Source: an uncultured Ruminococcus sp. | GTDB taxonomy: Bacteria; Bacillota; Clostridia; Oscillospirales; Acutalibacteraceae | Assembly: GCA_902773265.1 (NCBI GenBank) | Contig: CACYDZ010000378.1 | Span: 1-5,757 of the forward strand | Reading direction: 5' to 3' | Length of the DNA: 5,757 nucleotides | Shown: positions 1 through 5,757 of the stretch, piece by piece | How the letters are laid out: every line of letters starts with the position of its first letter | Numbering within the stretch: the first letter of the stretch is position 1 | Notes under the pieces: model-generated | What the model saw: only the letters and a program-made list of their open reading frames with translations | Database searches by the model: none | What the model was told of the DNA's origin: nothing | Translations under genes and position numbers: made by a program

Positions 1-6
1 AAAATC

Positions 7-30
7 CAAAATTTGCGTACGCAAATTTTG
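7..30. repeat. Perfect 24-bp palindrome inside repeat copy A
   Basis: Positions 7-30 read identically on both strands: each 10-nt arm is CAAAATTTGC (or its complement) around GTAC. As RNA it would form a 10-bp stem with a GTAC loop. The equivalent element of copy B (4524-4547) has the same arms but loop GTAA, so the full palindrome is specific to this copy. No function is assigned. Confidence 0.9.
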
Positions 31-139
31 TCTGAATATTTAGCCGATTAAAGGGTTGCCACCCTTTAAAATCCCGCCCAAAGGCTCCGCCTTTGGAAAC
101 CGCCACTTTTTTGAAAAAAAGTGGACAAAAAACTTTTAA
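7..139 (-). repeat. Four-hairpin dispersed repeat, copy A
   Basis: Read on the minus strand, this copy begins TTAAAAGTTTTTTGTC and then holds four successive inverted repeats. Hairpin 1 is at 103-124 (CCACTTTTT arms), hairpin 2 at 78-96 (CCAAAGGC/GCCTTTGG, 3-nt loop), hairpin 3 at 48-69 (TTAAAGGGT/ACCCTTTAA, 4-nt loop) and hairpin 4 at 7-30 (CAAAATTTGC/GCAAATTTTG, loop GTAC). The same order, spacing and core words recur in opposite orientation at 4420-4547. It contains no believable gene and no terminal inverted repeat or target-site duplication that I can see. It starts 69 bp after the proC stop codon and is transcribed with proC if nothing ends that transcript earlier. It may therefore act as the proC 3' end, which is inference. 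The repeat may extend past the window edge. Confidence 0.85.
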
Positions 140-207
140 GTTTCACCGCCGACACTTTGATAAATAATCTCAATAGAGTAAACCTTGAAAATTTTGTCAA
201 GAGCAAC

Positions 208-1008
208 TCATTTGCCGAGTTCTTCCGCACGGTTAGTGCAGGCTTGCATAGCGTTTTTGATATTCTGATAAAATCCGCCTTTATCCAGAACATCAAGAGC
301 GGCTAATGTTGTTCCGCCCGGAGAAGAAACTTTCTTAATTAATGTGTCAAGACTGTCGCCTGAGCGTAATATCATTTCGGCACTGCCTTTGAGTGTGGCA
401 CAAATGAGTGATAAAGCAGTAGTTTCGTCTATATCTGATTCTTTGGCATAGTCAAGCATAGCTTTGGCGAAAAGATAGATATAGGCAGGACTGCTTCCGT
501 TGACAGAAATAACCGTGTTCATCTGATTTTCAGGCAGAACAGTACATATTCCTGAACTTCCGAAAATTTTCTTTACACTGGAAAAATCGTCATCGCTGAT
601 ATTTTCAGAGGGACATAATGCCGTTGCACCACAGCCGAGTAACAATGGTGTATTGGGCATAACTCTTACGCAAGGACAGTTTTTTTCCAGAGAGGAAAGA
701 ACATAGTGAATGGAAATTCCTGCCGCAATGGAGATAATGACGGTATTTTCTGAAACAGAAGTTTTGATTTGTGAAAGTACCTGTGCATAATTCTGTGGTT
801 TGACTGCCAGTACAACAAAATGACTGTTTTCTACAACAGCATTGGCACTGTCGCAAACCTGTACGCCTTTTTTCTCCATGACAGAAAGTTTATCTTTGTC
901 AAGGTCAAAGACATAAATATCTTCTGTTGTGGCAACATTATTGGCAATCATACCGTTGATGATAGCGGTTGCCATATTTCCTGCTCCGATAAATCCTGTT
1001 TTTTTCAT
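208..1008 (-). CDS. proC: Pyrroline-5-carboxylate reductase
   Basis: This enzyme catalyses the last step of proline synthesis, the NAD(P)H-dependent reduction of 1-pyrroline-5-carboxylate to L-proline in the cytoplasm. The 266-residue product is normal length for the family. It opens with the Rossmann dinucleotide-binding motif GFIGAGNMA (residues 5-13), followed by VVLAVKPQ (65-72) and RVMPNTP (115-121). The dimerisation-domain segment GSSPAYIYLF (171-180) has Ser where many members have Gly. The C-terminal family signature SSPGGTTLAALDVLDKGGF lies at 228-246. The ATG at 1006-1008 is preceded by GGAGTG with a 7-nt spacer, supporting this start. It has its own promoter just upstream and a terminator separates it from gntR, so it is probably monocistronic. 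No proA or proB is in the window. Confidence 0.97.
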   Translation of the reverse strand: MKKTGFIGAGNMATAIINGMIANNVATTEDIYVFDLDKDKLSVMEKKGVQVCDSANAVVENSHFVVLAVKPQNYAQVLSQIKTSVSENTVIISIAAGISIHYVLSSLEKNCPCVRVMPNTPLLLGCGATALCPSENISDDDFSSVKKIFGSSGICTVLPENQMNTVISVNGSSPAYIYLFAKAMLDYAKESDIDETTALSLICATLKGSAEMILRSGDSLDTLIKKVSSPGGTTLAALDVLDKGGFYQNIKNAMQACTNRAEELGK

Positions 1009-1050
1009 TGACTATCACTCCATATTGATAAAACTTGATTGGCTGTTTTT

Positions 1051-1078
1051 ATTATAGCACTTTATTTTTTTATTACAA
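1051..1078 (-). promoter_or_regulatory. Sigma-A-type promoter of proC
   Basis: On the minus strand a perfect -10 box TATAAT (1051-1056) lies 16 bp from a weaker -35 box TTGTAA (1073-1078). Transcription would begin near 1044, giving a short leader of about 36 nt before the proC ATG. It sits between the gntR terminator and proC, as expected for an independent unit. Confidence 0.75.
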
Positions 1079-1124
1079 TCCATAATCAAGCAATTCTAGA
1101 ACAAATTTTAAAAGTAATCAATAA

Positions 1125-1161
1125 AACGCAGTGAAAATCTTTAAAGATTTTTCACTGCGTT
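1125..1161 (-). terminator. Intrinsic terminator after the gntR-family gene
   Basis: A long hairpin has arms AACGCAGTGAAAA and TTTTCACTGCGTT around an AT-rich apex with a one-base bulge. On the minus strand the stem is followed by TTTTATTGATT, a usable U-tract. It begins 17 bp after the regulator's stop codon. The stem is nearly symmetric, but the plus-strand side runs into TGAAAATATA, so minus-strand termination is the natural reading. Confidence 0.85.
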
Positions 1162-1178
1162 GAAAATATATACCTTAG

Positions 1179-1556
1179 TTATTTATTATTGTCAGCCTGA
1201 TAAATTTCCACAACCATCTGTTGTAATTCTTCAGCGGAATAGCGTAAGCGTTTGGCTTCGGTAAGTAAGGCTTTGACATATCTGTCTTTAAAAGTTTTAC
1301 GGCGTTCCTCAATGAGTTTTTCTGTTGCTCCTTCTCTGACAAACATACCGATACCCCGTTTTTTGTAGACAATTCCCTCATACACCAACAGATTGACCGC
1401 TTTGTTGACGGTAGCAATATTGATGTTGTATTCTTTGGAAATATAGGTTGTTGAGGGAACCTGTTCTTCCTCTTTGATATCGCCCATAAGAATATGGTCT
1501 TTGATACCTTCAGCAATCCTTGCAAAAATCGGAATGTTTTCTCCTATGATATCCAT
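1179..1556 (-). CDS. GntR-family transcriptional regulator, YtrA-like
   Basis: This 125-residue protein has the short layout of the YtrA subfamily: an N-terminal winged helix-turn-helix and a brief C-terminal helical tail instead of a large ligand-binding domain. The DNA-binding part spans about residues 8-75, with VPSTTYISKEYNI and NIATVNKAVNLLVYEGIV forming the recognition region and KKRGIGMFV (65-73) the wing. Residues 77-120 look helical and probably dimerise. The ATG at 1554-1556 follows AAGGTGG with a 7-nt spacer. YtrA-type regulators are usually co-transcribed with ABC transporter genes, but here a terminator follows directly and no transporter is in the window. A consensus promoter with a perfect palindrome over its -10 box suggests autorepression. 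The effector and wider targets cannot be told from sequence. Confidence 0.93.
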   Translation of the reverse strand: MDIIGENIPIFARIAEGIKDHILMGDIKEEEQVPSTTYISKEYNINIATVNKAVNLLVYEGIVYKKRGIGMFVREGATEKLIEERRKTFKDRYVKALLTEAKRLRYSAEELQQMVVEIYQADNNK

Positions 1557-1603
1557 ACAATTTCCACCTTTTTCAAAAAATCAGTTAATCACTCATATAA
1601 TCA

Positions 1604-1622
1604 AGATATAATCATTATATCT
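1604..1622. promoter_or_regulatory. Palindromic operator over the gntR-family -10 box
   Basis: A perfect inverted repeat AGATATAAT-C-ATTATATCT (9 + 1 + 9 bp) completely covers the -10 hexamer at 1614-1619. One arm word, ATATAATCA, recurs at 1595-1603 and 1606-1614, an 11-bp direct spacing or about one helical turn. A dimeric GntR protein bound here would block RNA polymerase, so this is the likely site for autorepression by the downstream gene. The palindrome is seen; its binding by this regulator is inferred. Confidence 0.75.
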
Positions 1623-1642
1623 GATAATTTCAGTAATGTCAA
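1614..1642 (-). promoter_or_regulatory. Consensus sigma-A promoter of the gntR-family gene
   Basis: On the minus strand a perfect TTGACA (-35, 1637-1642) and a perfect TATAAT (-10, 1614-1619) are separated by exactly 17 bp. Transcription would start near 1607, about 50 nt before the start codon. Such a strong promoter fits a gene held down by a repressor at the overlapping palindrome. Confidence 0.88.
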
Positions 1643-1694
1643 TGATTTTGTCAGAAAACGCAGTAAAAAAATGGTATGGCTCTTTGTCAGAAAG

Positions 1695-2300
1695 TCAATC
1701 TTTTCTGGCACTTCTCCATGTCATACCCCAATGAAAATCTCTGTCCATACTCTGATGACCTGTATAGAAACCGACAATTTTTTCTACACTGAAAGTAGTA
1801 TCGTCAATATTTTCAAACATTGCCAACGCACACATTTTTTTTGTCGTATCATAAATATCCATTTTAATCACTAAATCTTCAGCGTTGGGATATTTGATGG
1901 TGACAATGCCATCAGCACGCTTCCAGTTGGCAATACCGTCATAAATAAAAGTGTAGACCAGTATTCTTTTGAATTGGGAAATCTGATTGCCGTTAATCCG
2001 CAGATTTTCACCTGTTGCTATATTGCCTGTTCTGTCATCGCCGTCAAGAAGAATATACGGATATTTTTCCATACTGCCAAAATGTTTTCCCAACGCTTGT
2101 ATACAGCCCTTTTTACCGTCTTTCATTTCATACAGACACCCTAAATCCAAATCAATCGGCTTTTCATTACTGAAAATCGCTTTGAAAAATCCCTGTTTAT
2201 TCGCTCTGGCATTCCAGTTGAGGTTAATCAGAATTTCCCCAAGATTGCTTTTGTTTTTCTTTAAATTGACTTTTTGCCCTTTTTGCAGACGGATACTCAT
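1695..2300 (-). CDS. TerD-superfamily stress protein, TerA-like
   Basis: The 201-residue protein belongs to the TerD superfamily (tellurium-resistance/general stress proteins that bind calcium in characterised members) and looks closest to the TerA-like branch. It opens MSIRLQKGQKVNL, the usual first strand of the fold. The acidic pair DLDLGCLYEMKDG is at 50-62, LDGDDRTG at 85-92 and GENLRING at 97-104, supplying the Asp-rich calcium-site residues. FIYDGIANW (118-126) and the terminal WGMTW (191-195) are also typical. The ATG at 2300 is preferred to an in-frame GTG at 2310-2312, because that GTG lies inside the ribosome site GAAAGGTG, which sits 9 nt before the ATG. The gene stands alone, without terB, terC, terD or terZ, so tellurite resistance should not be assumed. 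It lies 68 bp after rny, with a terminator between. Confidence 0.88.
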   Translation of the reverse strand: MSIRLQKGQKVNLKKNKSNLGEILINLNWNARANKQGFFKAIFSNEKPIDLDLGCLYEMKDGKKGCIQALGKHFGSMEKYPYILLDGDDRTGNIATGENLRINGNQISQFKRILVYTFIYDGIANWKRADGIVTIKYPNAEDLVIKMDIYDTTKKMCALAMFENIDDTTFSVEKIVGFYTGHQSMDRDFHWGMTWRSARKD

Positions 2301-2309
2301 ATTTTGACA

Positions 2310-2317
2310 CACCTTTC
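2310..2317 (-). promoter_or_regulatory. Ribosome-binding site fixing the TerA-like start
   Basis: The minus-strand sequence GAAAGGTG is spaced 9 nt from the ATG at 2298-2300. The in-frame GTG at 2310-2312 is part of this site and cannot use it, which rules in the ATG and gives a protein of 201 rather than 205 residues. Confidence 0.75.
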
Positions 2318-2332
2318 GTTGAAAATGAAAAT

Positions 2333-2360
2333 GGGGAGAAAAGCGGAACTTTTTCTCCCC
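2333..2360 (-). terminator. Intrinsic terminator after rny
   Basis: The arms GGGGAGAAAA (2333-2342) and TTTTCTCCCC (2351-2360) pair perfectly over 10 bp around an 8-nt loop, starting 8 bp after the rny stop codon. On the minus strand the stem is followed by ATTTTCATTTTC, a broken U-tract that suggests incomplete termination. Only 32 bp separate it from the next start codon. Confidence 0.82.
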
Positions 2361-2368
2361 GAAAATGG

Positions 2369-3922
2369 TTATTTGGCAAACTGTACTGCCCGACTTTCCC
2401 TTATCATGTTGACTTTGATTTGTCCGGGATATTCCAGTTCTTTTTCGATTTTATCACAGATTTCTTTGGCAAGCAGAACCATTTTGTCATCGTCAATGAT
2501 TTCAGGCTTGACCATAATGCGTATTTCCCGTCCTGCCTGAATAGCATAGGAAGCCTCTACACCCTCAAAAGACATAGCCACTTCTTCAAGTTTTTGCAGA
2601 CGCTTGATATAATTTTCGAGATTTTCACGCCTTGCACCGGGTCTTGCCGCCGAAATCGCATCTGCCGCCTGTACAATACAGGCAACAACTGTTTTTGCTT
2701 CGATATCGCCGTGATGAGCGGCAATAGCGTGTATAACGGCTTCACTTTCCTTGTAGCGTTTGGCAACTTCCACACCCAATTCAATATGTGACCCCTCAAC
2801 TTCATGGTCAAGAGCTTTACCGATGTCGTGCAATAATCCCGCACGCTTGGCAACAGACGGGTTCAGTCCCAATTCCTGAGCAATCATACCGGCAAGATGA
2901 CTGACTTCGATAGAATGTTTCAGCACATTCTGTCCGTAACTGGTACGGTATTTCAGACGACCTAATAATTTGATAATTTCAGGGTGAATACCATTAACGC
3001 CTGTTTCGATAATTGTTCTTTCTCCCTCCTGACGGATTGTCATTTCTACTTCCCGTTTAGCTTTTTCAAACATTTCTTCGATTTTGGCGGGGTGTATACG
3101 ACCGTCAGCAATCAATTTTTCAATTGTGACTTTGGCAACCTCTCGCCGGACAGGTTCAAAACAGGAAATGGTAATGGCTTCAGGGGTATCGTCAATAATC
3201 AAATCTACGCCTGTAATATTTTCTATGGAACGGATATTTCTTCCCTCTCTGCCGATAATCCGCCCTTTCATCTCGTCATTCGGCAACTGGACAACGGATA
3301 CAGTTGCTTCTGCCACATGGTCAGACGCACAACGCTGAATTGCCATAGAGATAATATTACGGGCTTTTTTGTCACATTCATCTTTCAGATGCTGTTCATA
3401 TTCTCTGATTTTGACTGCTTTTTCATGAGTAAGTTCGCCGTCAAGTTTTTTCAGCAATTCTTCTTTTGCCTGTTCGGTGGTATAACCCGAAATTTTTTCC
3501 AGTACTTCCAAATGACTGTTTTTAATTCTTTCTGCCTCTGCAAATTCATTTTCGACAGCTTTTTGTTTTTTGGCAATCTTGTCTTCTTTTTTCTCCAGAT
3601 TGTCAATTTTCTTATCCAGTGTTTCTTCTTTGGACTGTATACGCCTCTCCTGACGCTGGATTTCTCGTCTGCGTTCATTGATTTCTTTTTCGGAAACTTC
3701 TCTTTGGCGATGAATTTCTTCTTTTGCCTCTAAGATAGTTTCTTTTTTCTTTGCTTCTGCCTCCTTATAAGCGTCATTGACAATACGCTGTGCCTCTGCT
3801 TCTGCCGAACCGATTTCCGCTTCGGCAGTCTTTTTACGGTGATTGATACCCATAAAAAAGGCAACCGCTCCGGAAACAGCTCCGACGGCTATAATCAGCA
3901 CTATCGCAAGAACTAAATCCAT
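2369..3922 (-). CDS. rny: Ribonuclease Y
   Basis: RNase Y is a membrane-anchored endoribonuclease that starts mRNA decay and processing in many Firmicutes. All domains are present in order in the 517-residue product, the usual length. They are an N-terminal membrane helix (about 2-25), a long charged coiled coil (about 30-180) rich in Glu, Lys and Arg, and a KH RNA-binding domain with the [12 protein letters not shown] loop (220-231). The HD metal-dependent catalytic domain (about 330-430) contains [11 protein letters not shown], the HD pair in [23 protein letters not shown] and [14 protein letters not shown]. The C-terminus [16 protein letters not shown] is typical of the family. The start is ATG at 3920-3922, 8 nt from a perfect AAGGAGGTG. 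An adjacent in-frame TTG at 3923-3925 would add one residue and is less likely. A strong promoter lies about 390 bp upstream, leaving a long structured leader. Confidence 0.98.
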
Positions 3923-3930
3923 CAACTAAG

Positions 3931-3939
3931 CACCTCCTT
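3931..3939 (-). promoter_or_regulatory. Strong ribosome-binding site of rny
   Basis: AAGGAGGTG on the minus strand is a full complement to the 16S rRNA 3' end, 8 nt before the ATG at 3920-3922. This favours the ATG over the adjacent TTG at 3923-3925, although the two starts differ by only one codon. Confidence 0.85.
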
Positions 3940-4129
3940 GTTAAAATGTAGAAACCGATAAAAGTATCTAATGTCAGTGTAATTTGGTAACTCGCAGGTG
4001 CAACCGCTGTGATAATCAGACGGTGTTTTGTTTCATTAAAAAATTGAAGAGAACTACCTCCTGTTGTAACTGCTTAATCTAAATCTTATCACAAAATAAT
4101 TCCCGAACAAATATTTCAACAATTCTTTT

Positions 4130-4157
4130 CTCCCACAAAAACACTTTTTTGTAGGAG
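4130..4157 (-). repeat. 12-bp hairpin in the rny leader
   Basis: Arms 4130-4141 and 4146-4157 pair along their whole length in minus-strand RNA around loop AGTG. The pair 4134/4153 is G-U in that RNA but a C-A mismatch on the plus strand. A competing 7-bp fold (AAACACT at 4139-4145 with AGTGTTT at 4156-4162) uses some of the same bases. No U-tract follows, so it is not a standard terminator. Confidence 0.7.
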
Positions 4158-4309
4158 TGTTTAAACTTTAGTCTAAATATATCCTGACGGCTCTCTTTAC
4201 GAGTCGGAATCCTGAATTTACTTATCTATGTAAAAAAGTAAATTTTATAAGCAAAACATATCCGTAAGTTTTTCCACTTTCACTTTACGGATAACATTAC
4301 ACCAATATA

Positions 4310-4338
4310 ATAATAGCATTTTTTCATGGAATTGTCAA
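4310..4338 (-). promoter_or_regulatory. Near-consensus sigma-A promoter of rny
   Basis: On the minus strand a perfect TTGACA (4333-4338) is 17 bp from TATTAT (4310-4315, one mismatch to TATAAT). The next gene on this strand is rny, so this is its most likely promoter. The 81 bp between it and repeat copy B (4339-4419) show nothing further that I can support. Confidence 0.8.
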
Positions 4339-4419
4339 CCTGATTTTTTATCATTGCATAGAAATCCATTGTTAATCCGGAAATCGCTAATGACAAAAAA
4401 TAACTTATAGCTGTGACAA

Positions 4420-4547
4420 TTAAAAGTTTTTGTCGAACTTTTTTCAAAAAGTTCGTGGGGGCAAGGGGCAAAGCCCCTTGTGGGATTTTAAAGGGCAACG
4501 CCCTTTAACTCCCCATAAAAATTCAAAATTTGCGTAAGCAAATTTTG
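4420..4547 (+). repeat. Four-hairpin dispersed repeat, copy B
   Basis: This is the second copy of the element at the left edge, inverted relative to it. It begins TTAAAAGTTTTTGTC. Hairpin 1 is at 4434-4455 (CGAACTTTTT/AAAAAGTTCG), hairpin 2 at 4462-4480 (CAAGGGGC/GCCCCTTG, loop AAA), hairpin 3 at 4488-4508 (TTAAAGGGC/GCCCTTTAA, loop AAC) and hairpin 4 at 4524-4547 (CAAAATTTGC/GCAAATTTTG, loop GTAA). The words GGGATT before hairpin 3 and the arms of hairpin 4 are shared with copy A. The stems of hairpins 1-3 differ, but every change is matched on the other arm. It lies between the dgkA terminator region and the rny promoter, and no promoter or gene on the plus strand explains it. Confidence 0.85.
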
Positions 4548-4589
4548 ACAATAATTACTTAATTTATCAACCGCTCAGATAGAAAAATT

Positions 4590-4659: not shown

Positions 4660-5172
4660 TTATGGATTATTCATATTATCAAGCTGCTTACGCAGTTCGG
4701 TGCGTTCCTTGATGTGTTCCACGAACTTTCTGGGTCCCACCACAATGAACACACTGCTGATAAGCATACTCAAAATAAATACCGTAAGATATTCGGGAGT
4801 GTTACACAGAAAAGAAATAATGTTCCACATGGTTTTCATATCGAAAAACAAATATACGCCGATAATCACCGCAACGATTGCCGTTGTCAGTACAGCTCCT
4901 GCGGAAGCATCTTTGGCAATTTTAATCAGTTCTGATTTTTCCTGAGTGATAGCATCACAAGTTTTTTCCACAGCGGTATTCAGGAGTTCAAGTGCCATAA
5001 CAACTCCGATTACCAGCCATACAATACAAATCTGTTCTGTACTAAGTGAATAAAACTGAGAAAAGTACAGTACATATGCCCCGACAACCAGATGGATTCT
5101 CATATTTCTCTGGTCGCACAGACAGCTTACCATACCTCTGAAAGCATAAAACAGGCTTTTCAGAAATCTCAC
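4660..5172 (-). CDS. dgkA: Diacylglycerol kinase family membrane protein (DgkA/undecaprenol kinase type)
   Basis: This is a small integral-membrane lipid kinase. In Gram-positive bacteria the family mainly phosphorylates undecaprenol to regenerate the wall-synthesis carrier lipid, and the exact substrate here is not shown. Family marks are the cytoplasmic RNMRIHLVVGAY (22-33), the catalytic helix ELLNTAVEKTCDAI (62-75) and KDASAGAVL (87-95). Hydrophobic segments lie at about 28-40, 48-66 and 92-110. At 170 residues it is longer than the common ~120. The extra part carries a fourth hydrophobic segment (about 128-146) and a charged tail. The start is GTG at 5170-5172, supported by AGAGGA 6 nt before it. 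That GTG overlaps the ybeY stop as GTGA, indicating translational coupling. The phoH-ybeY-dgkA order is common in Firmicutes. Confidence 0.93.
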   Translation of the reverse strand: MRFLKSLFYAFRGMVSCLCDQRNMRIHLVVGAYVLYFSQFYSLSTEQICIVWLVIGVVMALELLNTAVEKTCDAITQEKSELIKIAKDASAGAVLTTAIVAVIIGVYLFFDMKTMWNIISFLCNTPEYLTVFILSMLISSVFIVVGPRKFVEHIKERTELRKQLDNMNNP

Positions 5173-5672
5173 AGCAAATCCTCTCTTACATAGCTTGTTG
5201 ACGCCGGTAATCCCAACAAGGACATGACTTTTTCTTCTTTTTCTCTCATGCGTACTCTTTCCATGTTGTCAATGTGGTCATATCCCAGAAGATGAAGTAC
5301 GGAATGTGCCGTCAGATAACCGACCTCTCTCTGTAAGGAATGACCATAACGCTGTGCCTGTTCAACCGCTTTTTCCATAGAAATCACCACATCGCCCAGA
5401 ATCTGAGCACCGGTTTTTGGGTCGATATCATACACACCGTTTTCTCCCATAGGAAAAGAAAGTACATCTGTTGCACAGTCTTTATTACGGTATTGCTTGT
5501 TCAGATTATGAATTTCGTTATTATCCACAAAAGTCACACTGATTTCTGCAATCCCCTCAAAGCCCTCCAACTGCAATACGGCATGACAACAACGCCTTAC
5601 CAACATTCTCAGTCCTGTCGGAATTTTGACTTTTTTCTGATTATTAGTGATAATTACTCTTATTTTCTCCAT
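5169..5672 (-). CDS. ybeY: Endoribonuclease YbeY (16S rRNA maturation factor)
   Basis: YbeY is a zinc-dependent endoribonuclease that acts in 16S rRNA 3'-end maturation and ribosome quality control. The 167-residue product has the family's usual length. It carries the metal-binding signature HSVLHLLGYDH, with the three histidines at 123, 127 and 133. Also characteristic are the upstream NKQYRNKDCATDVLSFPM segment (58-75) and ILGDVVIS (91-98). The reading frame stays open towards the window edge, but the ATG at 5670-5672 gives the standard N-terminus MEKIRVII. Purine-rich AAGGAAAGG precedes it, with GAGGAGG a little further upstream. The start lies within the end of phoH (29-nt overlap) and the stop overlaps the dgkA start, so all three are likely co-translated. 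Confidence 0.96.
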   Translation of the reverse strand: MEKIRVIITNNQKKVKIPTGLRMLVRRCCHAVLQLEGFEGIAEISVTFVDNNEIHNLNKQYRNKDCATDVLSFPMGENGVYDIDPKTGAQILGDVVISMEKAVEQAQRYGHSLQREVGYLTAHSVLHLLGYDHIDNMERVRMREKEEKVMSLLGLPASTSYVREDLL

Positions 5673-5757
5673 TACCTTTCCTTGCCTCCTCAACATTTCT
5701 CTCGTAAGCCCTGATGATATCCTGTACCAGCTTATGACGGACAACATCTCGTTCACT
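5644..5757 (-). CDS. phoH: PhoH-family protein, C-terminal end only
   Basis: Reading from the window edge on the minus strand, 37 codons end in TAA at 5644-5646. The peptide begins SERDVVRHKLVQDIIRAYER and continues with a charged tail to SNYH. The DVVRHxLVQxIIRAYE pattern is the conserved C-terminus of PhoH-like (PhoL-type) ATPases, P-loop proteins of the RecD-like helicase fold usually encoded directly before ybeY. The Walker motifs and the start lie outside the window, so activity cannot be judged. It overlaps ybeY by 29 nt in a different frame. The identification rests on the short motif plus gene order. Confidence 0.85.
   Translation of the reverse strand, partial: SERDVVRHKLVQDIIRAYERNVEEARKGNGENKSNYH

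Follow-up and report, generated by a model that had tools for sequence, protein, structure and literature searches.

Modular hairpin repeats, as in BOX elements, and inverted doublets of palindromes, as in REPINs, are already known. The BOX elements of Streptococcus pneumoniae consist of boxA, boxB and boxC modules and are regarded, in the part of PMC3049150 on which we draw, as parasites that resemble miniature inverted-repeat transposable elements (MITEs). When the two arms of a stem change in step, this is commonly taken as proof of selection on folded RNA, and the family described here, with 564 copies in samples of two sister genomes, provides a large natural test of whether the exchange of whole hairpins or the copying of one arm from the other can be the source instead. 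We analysed a stretch of 5,757 nt (the window, meaning the whole stretch) of an uncultured Ruminococcus sp. (assembly GCA_902773265.1, contig CACYDZ010000378.1), which carries two copies of a repeat with four hairpins (H1 to H4). The copies belong to a family that is probably a non-autonomous, MITE-like mobile element, predicted to be moved by a transposase, and whose hairpins are probably exchanged between copies as whole cassettes.

The original prediction, made from the letters of the window, had described two inverted copies with four hairpins each, and both are present where it placed them. Their parts are as follows, where G002 denotes a sister species of the window's genome (G000) and ORF an open reading frame.

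4415-4549, plus strand: conserved core of the right copy, made of the head (GACAATTAAAAGTTTTTGTC) and H1 to H4; a full-length member by profile and BLAST matches, at a site whose orthologue in G002 is empty.
4435-4454, plus strand: H1 of the right copy, GAACTTTT/AAAAGTTC, loop TTCA.
4462-4480, plus strand: H2 of the right copy, CAAGGGGC/GCCCCTTG, loop AAA.
4488-4508, plus strand: H3 of the right copy, TTAAAGGGC/GCCCTTTAA, loop AAC.
4524-4547, plus strand: H4 of the right copy, CAAAATTTGC/GCAAATTTTG, loop GTAA.
4568-4581, minus strand: 3′ terminal inverted repeat of the right copy, one mismatch to YACCTGAGCGGTTG, from a motif scan.
5-144, minus strand: conserved core of the left copy (head 125-144, H1 103-124, H2 78-96, H3 48-69, H4 7-30).
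145-169, no strand assigned: partial spacer of a head-to-head pair, adjoining the left copy, by inspection.
170-198, plus strand: worn head of the second unit of this pair (TCAATAGAGTAAACCTTGAAAATTTTGTC against GAACGAAGTGAGCC..AAAAGTTTTTGTC), by inspection, truncated before the end of the proC ORF.

The element extends beyond its hairpins, as a conserved 3′ tail reaches the terminal repeat at 4568-4581 in the right copy; no 5′ terminal repeat was recognised in this copy. The left copy is by inspection one half of a head-to-head pair, and its worn partner head (29 nt) ends nine bases from the end of the proC ORF at 208. The stem differences named in the prediction are correct: H2 has three matched changes, the loop-closing T-A pair of H3 becomes C-G, CCAC/GTGG in H1 becomes CGAAC/GTTCG, and the H4 stems are identical. 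The further claim that the copies share their order, spacing and unpaired words does not hold for the H3 loop (GGCA against AAC), and the right copy has additional basal pairing (GTGGGG/CTCCCC) that the left copy lacks. Compared with dinucleotide shuffles, the right and left copies fold with z values of −8.2 and −4.7 as RNA and of −7.9 and −6.0 as DNA, with 0/200 shuffles as good in each case. The inverted arrangement of the two copies across 4.3 kb has no evident meaning, because orientation is near random in the genome samples.

These samples were searched with iterated profiles, counting non-overlapping matches. We found 181 copies in 478,771 bases of G000 (69 readable contigs and the window, about a quarter of the genome and in part picked by matches) and 79 copies in those 33 readable contigs (212,259 bases) that no match had picked out, from which about 665 copies are extrapolated for the whole genome. 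In G002, which is 88.8% identical to G000 (117,620 bases in alignments >800), 383 copies, 124 of them full length, were counted in 785,590 bases, about a third of the genome, taken from long contigs already present in match lists; this corresponds arithmetically to about 1,170 copies in 2.4 Mb. The family makes up 4-5% of the sequence sampled, and the proposal of a structured family of REP/MITE-like character (REP, repetitive extragenic palindromic), here in high copy number, was supported. As many as 83/181 G000 copies lie ≤150 bases from a contig end in this partly match-picked sample, and the repeats therefore probably help to break the draft assembly.

A DNA search of 40 genomes gave matches in seven, namely five of the six species of the genus and, weakly, G013 and G022, and a covariance model applied to 150 scored candidates each matched 149, 150, 149, 3 and 127 in G001 to G005. 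The low value belongs to G004, another species of the genus, where one weak partial copy was found in 400,000 bases. Matches at E 1e-6 occur in 16/150 genomes of the taxonomic family; at the level of the order, 9/197 genomes match, and 9/80 named RNase Y loci carry a family match at E 0.01 or better. Outside the genus, a strong match was obtained only in G103 (22/22 scored candidates, best 1.9e-14; others 9e-9 or weaker), where 20 of the 22 matches listed keep the order of head, H1, H2 and H3 but have an H4 that is unrelated and exists in many variants, all with matched arms. In some of these copies H2 is the very allele, CCAAAGGC/GCCTTTGG, that the left copy of the window carries, and the architecture and even single hairpin alleles therefore span genera. 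Several G103 copies (L264-L283) show further hairpins after H4, for example AGCGGTGGACAAAGTCCACCGCTT, and arrays there may exceed four. With regard to spread by phages or plasmids, a blastn search with the right copy against 50,697 records of phages and 72,556 of plasmids gave no match. A head-plus-H1 pattern matched exactly in two IMG/VR contigs catalogued as viral (L284, L285), possibly in the host flanks of prophages.

The stems are kept complementary in nearly every copy. Of the 78 full copies listed, alignment A2 takes in 68 and omits 10 whose modules are expanded or missing. In it, 98.8% of 2,105 cells are paired and 104 cells are two-sided, against 23.3 ± 3.8 in shuffles and far fewer in every slid version; pair types are no more numerous than in the shuffles (23 against 23.2). 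Gaps are misplaced in H1 of A2, so that H1 counts in these analyses are low. Across the 564 copies, 12,498/12,687 pairs are Watson-Crick according to a finder that favours paired hairpins and recovered 460, 342, 435 and 194 of H1 to H4.

So that pairing could be told apart from mere closeness, the arm alleles in 213 full-length copies from G000 and G002 were read with fixed patterns that cover one to three positions of each arm, a procedure that also avoids the gap problem of H1; 33, 42, 14 and 28 of the copies were unparsed at H1 to H4, and H2 was read as the AGGGG type only. States present on one arm only were found in 1/180, 5/171, 2/199 and 2/185 cases for H1 to H4 at the positions read, and the one-sided changes that were to speak against the prediction are thus rare (10/735 arm pairs). 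Partner arms, at distances of 15, 17, 16 and 11 nt, are associated with V 1.00, 0.99, 0.98 and 0.97, compared with 0.36 (H1 right with H2 left) and 0.18 (H2 right with H3 left) for non-partner arms at 11 nt, 0.67 for H3 right with the linker (3 nt), 0.27 for the linker with H4 left, and 0.00-0.05 for H1-H3, H1-H4 and H3-H4. As partner arms are associated almost fully and neighbouring arms weakly, the hairpins act as interchangeable cassettes: they behave as fairly free to recombine with their neighbours but not to lose their partner arm. Furthermore, the same few hairpin alleles recur in weakly associated combinations, which makes the exchange of whole hairpins likely, and the three matched changes in H2 of the window are likely to be one such exchange. 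The compensated changes of the original prediction are therefore real as two-sidedness across the family, but compensation pair by pair is not required.

Mobility is indicated by the sites themselves. Flanks of 22 G000 sites mapped to G002 enclose a copy in 19 cases and none in three, and in the reverse direction 20 of 29 sites are filled and nine empty, with filled sites overlapping between the two directions; 0/16 sites are filled in G004. The site of the window's right copy is among the empty ones, with 24 nt between the mapped flanks in G002 against 236 in the window, and several empty sites are clean among the alignments listed. At filled shared sites the flanks are 80-95% identical, and 3/14 single ortholog pairs lie in opposite orientation. 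Alignment of flanks extends the element at both ends to terminal inverted repeats, roughly AAATTTCYACCTGAGCGGTTG, and a minority of copies keep the terminal inverted repeat CYACCTGAGCGGTTG; the whole unit measures about 205-280 bp. Among 160 strict copies in this alignment, 49 have the tail and 37 the longer 5′ end. With ≤3 mismatches, a 13-nt end was recognised at the 5′ side of 41 and the 3′ side of 51 of the 564 copies, compared with 0 and 1 when the flanks were reversed, and in strict full-length copies at 20/169 5′ ends and 39/169 3′ ends. The motif YACCTGAGCGGTTG occurs, at ≤1 mismatch, 11, 9, 99, 22, 0 and 1 times in G000 to G005, and its backwards control was found 0 times in each genome except once in G005, which equals the single match of that genome. 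In 22 copies examined with 100 settings for each direction, the two flanks of the same copy are alike as direct repeats (best z 4.3, z 3.4 for 8-bp windows, median 0.7) but show no such likeness in the inverted sense (best z 1.4, median −0.3), suggesting a worn target duplication of about 8 bp that is AT-rich; a duplication is visible by eye in some filled/empty pairs. With its empty sites, the terminal repeats of a minority of copies and the suggested worn duplication, the family therefore behaves like a non-autonomous mobile element of the MITE type.

Several observations weigh against this interpretation. Of the nine sites filled in G002 only, at least two cannot be explained by simple insertion, the lengths differing by −251 and 47. 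Both terminal repeats (≤3 mismatches) occur in only 14/169 strict full-length copies, so that most copies are either worn or represent another form. The target duplication shows in the statistics rather than cleanly in each copy, and it comes from a scan of 100 window settings. The third of G002 and the quarter of G000 that were sampled yielded no autonomous partner or transposase with matching ends, while the remaining parts were covered by a search for the end motif alone. Where two terminal repeats converge at a distance >500 bp in the sampled DNA (three pairs), they enclose apparent host genes and no transposase. With regard to the cassettes, some associations reach beyond neighbours, that of H1 left with the linker amounting to V 0.22 and, for coarser module classes, those of the head with H3 or H2 (G002) and with H4 (G000) to 0.23-0.24. 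Orthologous copies also share somewhat more alleles than random ones, as 11 same-orientation G000/G002 pairs agree in 24/44 module alleles (0.55) against 0.41 ± 0.07 after permutation (48/2000 as high). Loops of the GNRA class are favoured and stable in RNA, and the H4 tetraloops are GNRA in 113/202 cases; among internal imperfect pairs, G-T outnumbers A-C by 41 to 22 (p 0.02, after 30 edge T-G pairs at H1 position 9 were dropped). Both features would fit some selection at the RNA level. Finally, inverted loops are rare, at 7/202 in H4 (TTAC for GTAA in 6/202), 2/479 and 0/365 in the H2/H3 classes and 4/470 in H1, one TTT loop in H2 falling outside the patterns counted, and template switching that inverts the loop is therefore limited.

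Among 20 isolated end motifs in the sampled DNA (≤2 mismatches of 13), of which about four are real by eye, none was seen beside a transposase. A recurring loop variant, GGGTTGGGAACACAGACACTGTGCG.., forms a small second hairpin within the H2 or H3 loop (L051:2449-2603, L060:1108-1264, L045:3998-4189, L042:2085-2217).

In the mobile-element interpretation, insertion would be carried out by an enzyme of the cut-and-paste type that leaves duplications of about 8 bp, and the hairpins would be reshuffled by recombination or gene conversion among copies. Complementarity would be kept at the level of the DNA, where either movement requires a strand folded into a hairpin or template switching copies an arm anew from its partner. 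A more far-reaching version, which we put forward tentatively and consider doubtful as a whole, is a mobile repeat of exchangeable hairpin cassettes handled by a non-RAYT enzyme acting on single-strand DNA hairpins, in which breakpoints would fall between hairpins and almost never inside them, arm copying at the DNA level would keep each hairpin perfect, the copies would form one recombining pool of alleles, and kindred pools would exist in other genera of the family.

The alternative that survives best, though we regard it as unlikely, is mutational upkeep only, in which one arm is copied from the other through template switching primed by the hairpin, and perfect pairing arises without selection or function. 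Excerpts of PMC8794818 propose such a mechanism for RNA hairpins, and template switching at quasipalindromes of E. coli is described in the portion of PMC7202029 used here. The great rarity of one-arm states would follow directly from it, and inverted loops do exist, both as TTAC in H4 and at the H4 position of G103 (AAA 7, TTT 5, GAA 4 and TTC 2 of 20, one AAA, in L279, being a misplaced hairpin), but they are nearly absent in H1 to H3, so that any switching there must keep the loop. Upkeep on its own also leaves the empty and filled sites and the weak association of neighbouring hairpins unexplained; it is compatible with a mobile element as its upkeep step.

Less probable still, in our view, is an RNA element, i.e., an array that forms part of the transcript at the 3′ ends of genes and, once folded, terminates or stabilises it, with stems kept by selection on the RNA. 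The stems covary, the window copies fold strongly as RNA, and the GNRA loops of H4 and the excess of G-T pairs point in the same direction. Placement was assessed with genes called by a greedy choice of ORFs and not by a trained gene finder. The midpoint of a copy falls within a called ORF in 5/181 (G000) and 13/383 (G002) cases, and the family is thus intergenic, occupying 232/635 intergenic gaps in the G002 sample. There, convergent gaps carry copies more often (43/87) than tandem (161/465) or divergent ones (28/83, 34%), and in tandem gaps 163/282 copies lie nearer the upstream stop (p 0.01), so that the preference for gene 3′ ends expected in the original prediction is slight only. Orientation is near random, with 155/283 copies pointing with the genes and 128 against (p 0.12), and local GC skew gave no replication strand bias (211 to 196). 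With orientation near random and 34% of divergent gaps occupied, a role of the RNA at 3′ ends therefore finds only weak support. In the window, a terminator-like match overlaps H4 on the dgkA strand, but such matches are not above shuffles (4 against 4.3), and Rfam 15 gave only sub-threshold matches, the best at 24.2 bits against a cut-off of 65.9. An RNA function also fits poorly with the near-absence from G004, a species of the same genus.

The loops of H2 and H3 speak in the same sense: they are often GNA or GNYA, alongside AAA and AAC, and their tetraloops are GNYA in 230/239 and GNRA in 4/239 cases, counts in which the loops of related copies are not independent. GNA and GNNA loops form extraordinarily stable DNA hairpins according to the part of PMC4686876 cited here. 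Near-random orientation, presence in divergent gaps and these loop classes therefore tip the balance, not strongly, towards a role at the DNA level. The selection on folded RNA that had been proposed is right in that the stems are kept and the RNA folds strongly; placement gives no favoured transcript strand and only the slight 3′ lean, and such selection is therefore not the leading interpretation.

The family also occurs in a paired form. Neighbours <150 bp apart are head-to-head in 18/24 cases in G000 and 86/119 in G002 (104/143 combined), with a spacer common to the pairs and 48-51 nt between the heads in 76/104; in 103/104 of these pairs one or both sides fall short of a full array. A RAYT was considered as the mover within the genus and rejected after a search for PF01797 (Y1_Tnp) in G000 and seven relatives, which found no intact gene in the genus: there was no match in G001 (100% complete), G003 (84%) or G005 (90%), and what remains is a fragment in G000 that has decayed and, in G002, matches with a broken frame, the only intact match lying in G022, which belongs to another genus. 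These IS200-like remains are located at G002:C12:31579-31942, G002:C29:514-633 and G000:C241:1451-1585. A REP/REPIN system, in which single-strand hairpins are recognised by a RAYT-type (Y1, HUH) transposase and the head-to-head pair is the moving unit, is thus very improbable: high copy number, extragenic position, inverted doublets with a near-fixed spacer (104 pairs), the Y1_Tnp remains and the intact match in a genus with weak family matches only would suit it, as would the compensatory changes reported for REPINs in sections of PMC3116915 and the mostly head-to-head dimers of GTAG and CGTC REPs, the latter without a dedicated transposase, in sections of PMC3733652, but G001 lacks the domain with 149/150 family candidates confirmed, as do G003 and G005, no GTAG or CGTC tag stands beside the hairpins (H1 is mostly preceded by TGTC or GGTC among the 78 copies listed, as judged by inspection), and the terminal repeats and duplicated target would fit another class of enzyme.

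The genes of the window are the following, each an ORF named by recognition without a family search.

208-1008, minus strand: proC.
1179-1556, minus strand: gene of a GntR-type regulator.
1695-2312, minus strand: gene of a TerD-like protein.
2369-3925, minus strand: rny (RNase Y).
4660-5172, minus strand: dgkA.
5169-5756, minus strand: ybeY.

The left copy is located past the 3′ end of proC and the right copy between dgkA and rny. A search of named genomes with the RNase Y of the window gave a 99% match in the MAG RUG10751 of an uncultured Ruminococcus sp., where RUG denotes rumen genomes, and the host is likely a bacterium of the rumen. At 4523-4548 on the minus strand, which is that of dgkA, H4 of the right copy and the ATTTTTATGG after it pass a scan for terminator-like sequences, and transcription of dgkA may therefore happen to stop at this copy. 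A perfect 13-bp inverted repeat at 1125-1161, immediately downstream of the gene of the GntR-type regulator, is followed by TTTTATT on the minus strand and looks like an ordinary intrinsic terminator. Elsewhere in the samples, L111 starts (1-174) with a different repeat that contains an in-frame VRNDRESVRNDRE / HFEERKRREIF, which we take to be of a type present in many bacteria.

No description of the family appeared among the open-access publications listed, which is not proof of its absence, and the text of PMC12306157 (RepRanger) makes no mention of Ruminococc- or Clostridi-. Among described systems, REPs and REPINs with their RAYTs share with it the extragenic palindromes, the inverted doublets with a spacer, the compensatory stem changes and the high copy number (from parts of PMC3116915 and PMC3733652), but here no Y1/RAYT match occurs in three carrier relatives, no GTAG/CGTC tag is seen, and the unit is an array of four hairpins (about 135 nt) instead of one hairpin, with terminal inverted repeats on a minority of copies. 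BOX elements are likewise intergenic and modular with predicted stem-loops, and their module content varies between sites and strains according to the same part of PMC3049150; the present family is set apart, by description, through modules that are four hairpins, all different and each with many alleles, whose order is fixed, and it has a head-to-head paired form and no insertion sequence with a matching terminal repeat in the sampled DNA. MITEs such as RUP, Correia and Nezha, all named in that part of PMC3049150, are similar in being short, non-coding and structured, with terminal inverted repeats (here on a minority of copies), AT-rich flanks and filled and empty sites, whereas in the family described here most copies are without recognisable ends, the hairpin cores are G+C-rich and the internal cassettes are reshuffled. 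As far as our searches show, what is new in comparison with these systems is the family itself, together with the measured contrast between partner and non-partner arms.

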